Origin: Leptolyngbya sp. FACHB-261
GTDB lineage: Bacteria; Cyanobacteriota; Cyanobacteriia; FACHB-261
Direction of reading: 5' to 3'
Assembly: GCF_014696065.1 (NCBI RefSeq)
Contig: NZ_JACJPL010000018.1
Span: 1 to 64,000, forward strand
DNA length: 64,000 nucleotides
The notes below the pieces were generated by a model. It made no database searches and was not told the origin of the DNA. It saw only the letters and a program-made list of their open reading frames with translations. Position numbers and translations under genes: made by a program. Shown here one piece after another: positions 15,469 to 34,771 of the stretch (within the stretch, counting starts at the first letter, position 1; each line of letters begins with the position of its first letter).

Positions 15469-16221
15469 ATGCTTACTGAAAACCGATTGCTTGCCGCCTT
15501 GCCCCAAGAGGTGTTGGAGAGATTAGCCCCTCACCTGCAGCTAGTCGCGCTGCAAGCGGGGACCAGGCTTCACGAGGCTGGTGAAACTATCCAGGCTCTC
15601 TATTTCCCCATCGATTGCGGCCTCTCAATCACGATCACCATGAGTGATGGCAGGACAGCTGAAACGGGGCTGACGGGCAAGCGTGACGTGATTGGCATCA
15701 ATGCGATCATGGGCGGATGCACAACCACGCAAACCGCTTACGTTGTACAGCTTCCAGGCAACGCAATAAAGATCAACGCAAACGTGTTGCTGGACGAGTT
15801 CGATAGCAATAAGGCAGTGCGCGATGTGCTGTTACGTTACACTCAAGCCCTGATTGCACAGCTTTCGCAGACCACCGCCTGCAATAGCCTGCACCCTTTG
15901 GAGCAACGCTTGGCACGCTGGCTACTAGAAGCGCATGACCGCGTTGACAAGAAAAATCTGAGGCTGACGCATGAGCTTCTATCCGAGATGCTAGGCGTGC
16001 GCCGAGCTGGAGTTACTCAAGCAGCCCAAAAGCTTCAGGAAAGTGGGTTTATTCAATATGGTCGCGGCAGCGTTCACATCCTCGACTTGCCTGCACTGGA
16101 AGAGTTTGCCTGTGAGTGTTTCAGGACCGTCAAAGACGAATACGATCGCTTGATTGTCCCTAGACAACGGTTGTCTAGGGACAATCAAGCGATCAGAAAT
16201 AGTCAGCAAGCCTTGGCTTGA
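15469..16221 (+). CDS. Crp/Fnr-family transcription regulator with an extended C-terminus
   Basis: A 250-aa regulator with a cNMP-type jelly-roll (about 15-140) and a Crp-type winged helix (about 150-225; recognition region LLSEMLGVRRAGVTQAAQKL). The phosphate-binding cassette lacks the canonical Arg-Ser/Thr-Ala motif, so cAMP binding is unlikely. It belongs to the same subgroup as the two regulators at 34-35.8 kb, which share MLGVRRAGV and the CEC(F/Y) end. Those end at (F/Y)(N/D)RLL. Here about 25 residues follow, encoded by a perfect 51-bp palindrome (16144-16194), which suggests that the original end was altered by an inverted duplication. No partner gene is adjacent. Confidence 0.85.
   Translation: MLTENRLLAALPQEVLERLAPHLQLVALQAGTRLHEAGETIQALYFPIDCGLSITITMSDGRTAETGLTGKRDVIGINAIMGGCTTTQTAYVVQLPGNAIKINANVLLDEFDSNKAVRDVLLRYTQALIAQLSQTTACNSLHPLEQRLARWLLEAHDRVDKKNLRLTHELLSEMLGVRRAGVTQAAQKLQESGFIQYGRGSVHILDLPALEEFACECFRTVKDEYDRLIVPRQRLSRDNQAIRNSQQALA
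16144..16194. repeat. Perfect 51-bp palindrome (25-bp arms, one-base centre)
   Basis: The left arm at 16144-16168 begins GATCGCTTGATTG; the right arm at 16170-16194 is its exact reverse complement around G16169. It lies inside the 3' end of the Crp-like gene. Both strands therefore read as nearly the same peptide, with RLIVPRQ and LSRDNQAI. As RNA it would form a very stable hairpin. No T-run follows. Confidence 0.95.
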
Positions 16222-16598
16222 GGTCTTTCCCCGCTTCTTTCTCAGCTTCTATGGCAGCAGGCCCAGACCCTGCTGGTTCTGCCGATTGCTGGTCCTGATT
16301 TAGTTGCTTCCAAGTCATGGCTCGTTAGCTTGTAAGAAGAGGGAAGGGTACCGAGATACGCTCAAACTGAGGCCAAAACCTCAGTACGGAACGTGTTTTT
16401 TATTACGATCCCCATTTCAAAATTTCTATGCCCATAGCTCCACACGTTTCTTAAACAAAGTACAACTTCTGAGGGGGAGAACAAAATCCAACCCGCGCTT
16501 AAACTGCAACAAGTAGATTCACAACTTAGCCTGAGATTGTTAGATTGACTTCTACAAGTTTGTCCCATCTACTAAGCAAGCCTAATGTGGGGAAACCA
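16222..16598. other. Intergenic region, no gene seen
   Basis: About 377 bp between the Crp-like gene and the small protein gene. Only short frames without start signals. Nothing structured was noticed. Confidence 0.4.
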
Positions 16599-16853
16599 AT
16601 GAGTAGCCTCCGTATTGCAGAACCTATATTTAAGCAAGCGCAGAACGTACGAATTGCAGGACCTAGATTTAAGCAAGGGCAAAACGTATGTTTTATCGGA
16701 GGTGTAGGCATAATCAAAAGTTACCAGCCAGATATGGGAACCTGGTCTTATGCGGTGAGGATGGAGCTAGGGCCAGAACCGGATTTTGGCAGAATAGGAG
16801 ACGAGACAACGGTATTGCTGCTTGAAGAAGACCTTCAAGAGCATTCAGCTTAA
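16599..16853 (+). CDS. Small protein with an internal tandem duplication
   Basis: An 84-aa protein from ATG 16599, with GTGGGGAA just upstream; an in-frame ATG at 16545 is less likely. The body (FIGGVGIIKSYQPDMGTWSY, then MELGPEPDFGRIGDETTVLL) resembles a small family common in cyanobacteria that begins with a 'FKQGQNVRFIGG' type motif and may have an SH3-like beta fold. Here that N-terminal segment occurs twice (EPIFKQAQNVRIA, GPRFKQGQNV) because of a 39-bp tandem duplication. Function unknown. Confidence 0.65.
   Translation: MSSLRIAEPIFKQAQNVRIAGPRFKQGQNVCFIGGVGIIKSYQPDMGTWSYAVRMELGPEPDFGRIGDETTVLLLEEDLQEHSA
16611..16688 (+). repeat. Two tandem 39-bp copies inside a coding region
   Basis: Units 16611-16649 and 16650-16688 match at 34 of 39 positions and keep the reading frame. 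They encode RIAEPIFKQAQNV and RIAGPRFKQGQNV. Confidence 0.9.
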
Positions 16854-16954
16854 TTCTCCTGAACACTATTCTGCTTAGACTGTATCTGCAAGCAAGGCTG
16901 ATTTAGCTGTCTGTTATGCAGGATAAAAAGATTTAGGATAAATAGGAGTTTTAT

Positions 16955-17007
16955 GGGCACTCAAAGAGGGCGCAGGTATAGAGTGCCTGTGCCCTCTTTG
17001 AGTGCCC
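16955..17007. repeat. Long hairpin with 22-bp arms
   Basis: The left arm 16955-16976 (starts GGGCACTCAAAGAGGG) pairs with the right arm 16986-17007 across a 9-base loop. The only non-Watson-Crick position is a G-T, which would be a wobble pair in RNA. It lies about 100 bp after the small gene and may end its transcript. Confidence 0.9.
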
Positions 17008-17015
17008 CTATATTT

Positions 17016-17349: not shown

Positions 17350-17613
17350 ATGCCAAAAATCCATGTCAGCTTCTTCCCAAGGAAGCTTGGGGAGACAAGG
17401 TCGTGGTTGAATGTGCCCTCCGATCAAGTTTTAACGGTGGAGCAATTGCCCAAAACAGGGGACTATCTGGTGTATGGCAGCGAAACTGACTACTGGCAGG
17501 TCAAAGCAGTGACGTTAGCGGAGGGAGACTACCGCAGCTATGACGCAAGGATTGAAGCTACGCAAGTATTACCCGAAGACATCTTGCCACTCCCCAGGCA
17601 CAGGGTGTGGTAG
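17350..17613 (+). CDS. Small protein of unknown function
   Basis: An 87-aa protein from ATG 17350. The sequence (MPKIHVSFFPRKLG, DYLVYGSETDYWQVKAVTL, YRSYDARIEATQVLPEDI) suggests a small all-beta fold. No signal peptide, cysteines or metal motif. GGGAG lies 13 bases upstream, a loose spacing. It is followed closely by the 21-bp repeat array. I do not recognise the family. Confidence 0.5.
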   Translation: MPKIHVSFFPRKLGETRSWLNVPSDQVLTVEQLPKTGDYLVYGSETDYWQVKAVTLAEGDYRSYDARIEATQVLPEDILPLPRHRVW

Positions 17614-34057: not shown

Positions 34058-34771
34058 TTACTGCAGTAGACGATTAAACTCTGTCTTGGCCACTCGGTAG
34101 CATTCGCAAGACACAGCTTCTAAGCTCTGGCGATCAATTACTGTTATTTGCCCCCGGCTATAGCGAATCAGCCCAGCTTTCTGTAGGGCGCTGGCCACTT
34201 CACTGACTCCCGCGCGGCGTACGCCCAGCATTTGAGCCAGAAATTCCTGGGTGAGTTGAAACTGATCAGAGCGCACGCGGTCATGGGTCATCAGCAGCCA
34301 GCGACCACAGCGTTGCTCGATTGAGTGCAGGCAATTGCAGGCTGCAGAGCGAGCCATTTGCACCATTAGGGTATGGGTATAGCGCTGGAGCAGGTTATAA
34401 AGTGCACGCTTGCGGTTCTGGCTCACTTCCACCCGAAAGTTTTCTGCACTGATGCGCACCCCTTCACCGCGAACTTGTACAAATGCTTTGACGGGGGTTT
34501 TGACTGTCCCTAGAAACACTGGTAGGCCGACCATGCCTTCACTACCCACCGTTGCTGTTTCGACTGCTGTTCCATCAGCCATCAAGGTCAATAAGGAAAC
34601 AATTCCAGAATGCGGAAAATAAACATAGTCGATGGGTTCATAAGGCTCGTAAAGAACTTGTTTAAGCTCTAGAGAGACAGGCTCCAAATAGGGAAGTAAA
34701 AGCTCGTATTCAGCTTGAGGTACAGCGGCCAGAAGCCGATTCTCAGTTCCAGGCGACAGATTTGCAGACAC
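34058..34771 (-). CDS. Crp/Fnr-family regulator, copy 1
   Basis: A 237-aa regulator, jelly-roll sensor (about 15-140) and winged helix (about 165-230, LAQMLGVRRAGVSEVASAL). It is a close paralogue of the gene at 35078-35803. The DNA is nearly identical over about 170 bp covering the linker and HTH, with one exact tract of about 53 bp. No canonical cAMP-binding Arg is visible. Start GTG 34771. The two genes are in tandem, 306 bp apart, with a TTGCCA-T-TGGCAA palindrome at 34913-34925 between them that could be a Crp-type operator. Confidence 0.87.
   Translation of the reverse strand: MSANLSPGTENRLLAAVPQAEYELLLPYLEPVSLELKQVLYEPYEPIDYVYFPHSGIVSLLTLMADGTAVETATVGSEGMVGLPVFLGTVKTPVKAFVQVRGEGVRISAENFRVEVSQNRKRALYNLLQRYTHTLMVQMARSAACNCLHSIEQRCGRWLLMTHDRVRSDQFQLTQEFLAQMLGVRRAGVSEVASALQKAGLIRYSRGQITVIDRQSLEAVSCECYRVAKTEFNRLLQ

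Follow-up and report, generated by a model that had tools for sequence, protein, structure and literature searches.

How does a perfect palindrome come to lie within the last codons of a bacterial gene, and what can it do there? We examined this question in a window of 64,000 nucleotides from Leptolyngbya sp. FACHB-261 (contig NZ_JACJPL010000018.1, positions 1 to 64,000), which contains such a palindrome at 16144–16194. The palindrome consists of a left arm (16144–16168, plus strand), a single central G (16169, assigned to neither strand) and a right arm (16170–16194, plus strand) that is the exact reverse complement of the left arm, which gives 25+1+25 (51) bases with 100% complementary arms. 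The symmetry breaks off sharply on both sides: GAATAC precedes the palindrome, GATC stands at each of its ends, and AGAAATAG follows it. At the given base composition, approximately 1e-10 such structures are expected by chance per 64 kb and approximately 1e-8 per 6.95-Mb genome. The first-pass annotation, which reported a perfect 51-bp palindrome with 25-bp arms around one base, was therefore correct on this point. The reading that we prefer, with a probability of about 0.68, is that a replication template switch at the 3′ terminus of the gene produced the palindrome, a local inverted duplication present in single copy.

The host gene (15469–16221, plus strand) was delimited using the ORF list, Pfam and homologues; it encodes 250 amino acids and ends with a TGA stop codon at 16219–16221. 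The Pfam search of its product returned HTH_Crp_2 (E 2e-17) and cNMP_binding (E 3e-6, barely at the cut-off). On these domain matches, a cNMP-binding-like domain and a Crp-type HTH, the product is probably a Crp/Fnr-type regulator, and the earlier placement of the palindrome in the 3′ end of a Crp-like gene is confirmed. The 3′ edge of the palindrome is 27 nt short of the end of the gene and lies inside the coding frame; according to the sequence and the ORF list, the last 8 codons and the stop codon (16195–16221, plus strand) follow it. Six paralogues in the genome (6.95 Mb, 36 contigs) show 42–48% identity with the host protein and align up to query residue 229–232. For the paralogues at 34061 and 35084, the alignment stops at residue 230–232, and the palindrome indeed lies past the point where these two end, as had been noted before. 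Homologues with 59–67% identity end in EYDRLLG followed by a short variable tail, and their typical DNA at the gene end is tacGATCGCTTGctggg. The DNA and protein tails of 88 homologues place the end of the shared region at the conserved Y-D-R-L codons (TAC GAT CGC TTG; 16141–16152, plus strand). We sought closer relatives in the class, among 59 relatives, in the families or orders of the best hits and in GTDB contigs, and none exceeded approximately 67% identity. A search of plasmid records returned distant Crp homologues only; for a homologue from the same class, the highest-ranking plasmid match lay in Calothrix.

Several further features were observed downstream of the host gene. A non-coding-looking region (16357–16651) is 77% identical to G000:C30:31874-32169, which is located approximately 1.4 kb from another Crp-family paralogue. 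Two tandem 39-bp units with 87% identity (16611–16688) lie within a small ORF (16599–16853) for which no Pfam match was found. A second strong hairpin (16952–17010), approximately 750 bp downstream, has 25-nt arms that are 92% complementary and a 9-nt spacer.

We compared the C-terminal tails of 88 distinct homologues, host included. The tail past conserved codon 228 has 22 residues in the host protein versus 2–16 residues in all of the others and is thus the longest of the 88. No other tail being as long, the case of a long C-terminus shared by all orthologues without a palindrome was checked and not found. Because the tails of the homologues already have 2–16 residues, the net gain here is roughly 7–15 residues, and the previous estimate of about 25 extra residues was too high. 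The palindrome is located in the variable tail past the shared end of the family, and this freedom of the sequence beyond DRLLG accounts for its tolerance. When the center and the right arm (26 bp, 16169–16194) were removed in silico, the frame stopped after 235 codons, a usual length in the family, at a TAG (16200–16202, plus strand) that is out of frame in the present gene and is a candidate former stop. Removal of 24, 23 and 25 bp gave 242, 236 and 269 codons, respectively, the last of which is unlikely. The 26-, 24- and 23-bp removals all yield lengths within or near the family range, and it is by itself not very improbable that some tested frame reaches a stop in this range. Judged from these frames, the palindrome event probably displaced the old stop and carried the frame past the TAG, which agrees with the earlier suggestion that the stop region had been altered.

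The arms differ in age where this can be determined. The palindrome begins exactly at GATCGCTTG, which forms the outer left arm and corresponds to the D-R-L codons of the family. Since these first 9 nt of the left arm are old coding sequence, the matching outer right arm, CAAGCGATC, is the derived copy; its counterpart is absent from the homologues without hairpins. This polarity is limited to the outer 9 nt, and the inner 16 nt cannot be polarized. The inner left arm (ATTGTCCC...) does not follow the consensus of the family (CTGGG...); the event may accordingly have taken more than one step, perhaps with a short inverted repeat already in place as its seed.

Template switching places a reverse-complement copy beside its source and can produce a perfect stem in one event (PMC8794818). 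At this locus, a reverse-complement copy adjoins its source with perfect pairing, and, for the outer 9 nt only, one arm is ancestral and the other is derived. In such an event, the polymerase would have copied through the last conserved codons, jumped to the nascent or the opposite strand, and synthesized the reverse complement of the segment, with the older short repeat possibly serving as a seed or being perfected in the process, before returning to the original template; the exact switch points are ones that we infer. The outcome would be a perfect palindrome, a reading frame that probably continues beyond the old stop codon, a regulator longer by the residues estimated above, and an mRNA with a 24-bp hairpin just before the stop codon. 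A simple switch leaves the central base unexplained unless another base was also changed or a repeat was already present.

The arms are confined to this locus. A 24-mer of the arm gave no second match in the whole genome with up to 3 mismatches, and the sole blastn match of the palindrome was its own complement. These results indicate that the arms are single-copy in the genome and that the palindrome is not a repeat element. We also surveyed 2.41 Mb (35%) of the genome for palindromes, using mechanically called ORFs. Six of the longest palindromes in this sample were all different, and each arm was confined to its own palindrome; local events would be expected to leave such single, unrelated palindromes. 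The 2.41 Mb contain four perfect palindromes with 24 or more bases in each arm (arm/spacer 29/0, 25/7, 24/4 and 25/1). The 29/0 (58 bp) and 24/4 palindromes are outside genes, the 25/7 palindrome directly follows a stop codon, and the 25/1 palindrome at 16144–16194 is the only one of the four within an intact long ORF. The size of the palindrome is not exceptional for the genome, but its intragenic position is unusual. The earlier statement, argued from the instability of long palindromes, that it required a very recent origin, selection or special tolerance was overstated, because the same 2.41 Mb holds both a perfect 58-bp palindrome lacking a spacer and a further one whose arms measure 25 bp. 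With 156 occurrences in 2.41 Mb, the HIP1 octamer GCGATCGC is approximately 4 times over-represented in the genome, which points to a cyanobacterium.

The 25/7/25 palindrome (L156:12646-12702; G000:C27) lies right after the stop of another gene; translated in a single frame, both of its arms match the end of a DUF4351 domain (PF14261, E 2e-8), apparently a gene fragment. The spacerless 58-bp palindrome (L117:11680-11737; G000:C15) is situated approximately 18 bp before an ORF and shortly 3′ of the 3′ end of an apparent tRNA gene.

Hairpins also occur on the same codons in relatives of the host gene. Four further homologues (L201, L036, L226 and L243) carry perfect hairpins whose left arm starts on or just before the same conserved codons. 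The hairpin of L201 is TCGCTTGCTGG TTT CCAGCAAGCGA, and its entire left arm, TCGCTTGCTGG, matches the family consensus. The arm/spacer sizes are 15/5 for L036, 19/5 for L226 and 10/8 for L243, and L036 and L226 have the same hairpin, differing by three compensated pair changes. Within the coding DNA of the same loci (288 kb), there are only two more distinct hairpins of such size that begin in a CDS. The expected number of hairpins in the family tails is 0.06 at the rate of these loci and 0.19 at the rate of the host genome, and three or four origins are therefore unlikely by chance (P approximately 1e-3 to 5e-7), in a statistic whose region was defined after the first cases had been seen and whose gene number (approximately 110) is approximate. 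On a tree of 215 rows representing approximately 108 genes, most of them present twice owing to two queries, the hairpin genes occupy scattered positions and require five changes, at least three of which are forced by strongly supported branches; the sister duplicates leave this count unaltered. Another compensated form, TTACTGGGC-(ATGAA or AAAAA)-GCCCAGTAA, was matched at the DNA level in many genomes of one genus (g107). It is often paired with a second related hairpin approximately 925 bp away (for example, G511:C19:16524-16546 and 17452-17474), and such pairs may mark where the coding regions of tandem Crp-family genes end. We tentatively suggest, as a possibility short of an even chance, that perfect hairpins have arisen repeatedly at the 3′ coding end of this Crp-family gene. 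In this view, the last conserved codons would have become one arm in separate lineages, the free C-terminal tail would encode the other, and compensated changes would then have preserved the hairpin in some genomes.

Three other origins of the palindrome were weighed and appear very improbable. Fold-back chimeras formed during assembly or library preparation can yield perfect palindromes, but this palindrome is short, lies far inside a 560-kb contig, has a different unique sequence on each side and loses its symmetry after 25 bp; moreover, comparable hairpins occupy the same place in homologues from other genomes, and we regard an artefact as highly unlikely. Insertion of a mobile palindromic repeat comparable to the Rickettsia palindromic elements would also leave a palindrome in frame and near a gene end; the lack of a second genome copy and the presence of the gene's own conserved codons in the left arm make this explanation less credible still. 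Nor is there much to recommend an operator-like protein-binding site, for example for a Crp-type dimer: although the odd-centered core GACAAC-G-GTTGTC has the form of a dimer site, it was found once in 2.41 Mb and at the 3′ end of a gene, and 51 bp of perfect symmetry is more than binding needs, so this is as remote as the mobile repeat.

The more serious alternative concerns the RNA. The predicted RNA fold of the palindrome has a 24-bp stem and a 3-nt loop (approximately -51 kcal/mol, z -8.5), which bears out the earlier expectation of an RNA hairpin; the predicted DNA fold of one strand reaches -32 kcal/mol. The Rfam search of the palindrome returned microRNA models alone, far under their gathering scores, as is typical for any long hairpin. 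No U-tract follows the stem on either strand (AGAAATAG follows on the plus strand), and no terminator-like site was called. A canonical intrinsic terminator was accordingly rejected, since the stable GC-containing hairpin is present but the U-tract is not. Across 1959 stops, hairpins with arms of at least 10 bases begin within the final 75 nt of the coding sequence in 4 cases. In 80 rows the hairpin begins at the stop or beyond it, including 20 with a T-rich tail; hairpins between convergent genes are scored for both. Hairpins 3′ of genes are thus common in this genome and often U-poor, and a start inside the gene is rare. Cyanobacteria lack Rho, and in Synechococcus elongatus 22% of the transcription units end at a hairpin with a U-tract, while 46% of the defined ends without a U-tract are structured (PMC13289151). 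The likeliest effect of the hairpin would be as a structure of the RNA 3′ end (protection, processing or pausing) rather than as a classical terminator.

It may be argued that the coding-end hairpins of the family are kept by selection to terminate, protect or attenuate the transcript, with template switching merely supplying them. Same-codon hairpins in five homologues (host included) versus two at other sites in the 288 kb of coding sequence, the three compensated pairs of L036/L226, the further compensated form recurring in many g107 genomes, the lack of Rho in cyanobacteria, and the figures for hairpin and structured ends in one species (PMC13289151) speak for this proposal. However, the closest homologues of the host gene have no hairpin at all, the hairpin at 16144–16194 lacks a U-tract, renewed template switching could also give compensated changes, and the g107 matches stand at the DNA level only. 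We consider selection for an RNA element rather doubtful as the explanation, though far less so than the three origins above; for the hairpin in the window, a neutral young scar and a role at the RNA 3′ end are equally compatible with the data. The template switch remains our preferred reading, and it agrees with the single copy, the perfect arms, their sharp ends, the old outer left arm and the probable displacement of the stop: the palindrome is real and unusual within a gene, yet it fits a known mutation process.

If so, the locus would provide a clean bacterial example in which one copying error lengthens a protein and equips the mRNA with a strong hairpin. Since the same codons bear hairpins in homologues, the family forms a natural series for testing whether gene-end hairpins, as terminators or stability elements, arise from the last codons of genes, and this recurrence in relatives is the part worth following. 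Transcript ending is poorly understood in the bacterial group of the host. If the recurrence is true, these hairpins would represent a coding-embedded RNA 3′-end signal in Rho-less bacteria, of which 16144–16194 would be the longest case.

The palindrome resembles several known systems in part. The template-switch hairpins described by Monttinen and Loytynoja (2022, PMC8794818) likewise have a reverse-complement copy beside the source and a perfect stem formed in one event, but they concern RNA genes with reconstructed ancestors, whereas the present palindrome lies where a bacterial coding sequence ends, and its ancestor is not observed. The intrinsic terminators share a very stable hairpin at the gene end, but here neither strand has a U-tract and the stem precedes the stop codon. 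The Rickettsia palindromic elements (described in PMC6649704) also lie within protein-coding genes; those elements are transposable repeats, whereas this palindrome is single-copy and made of the gene's own codons. The coding palindromes of nematomorph mitochondria (PMC6649704) are also perfect inverted repeats within translated genes; they occur in many genes and hold conserved residues in both arms, whereas here the conserved residues are in the left arm only and the right arm forms the free tail.
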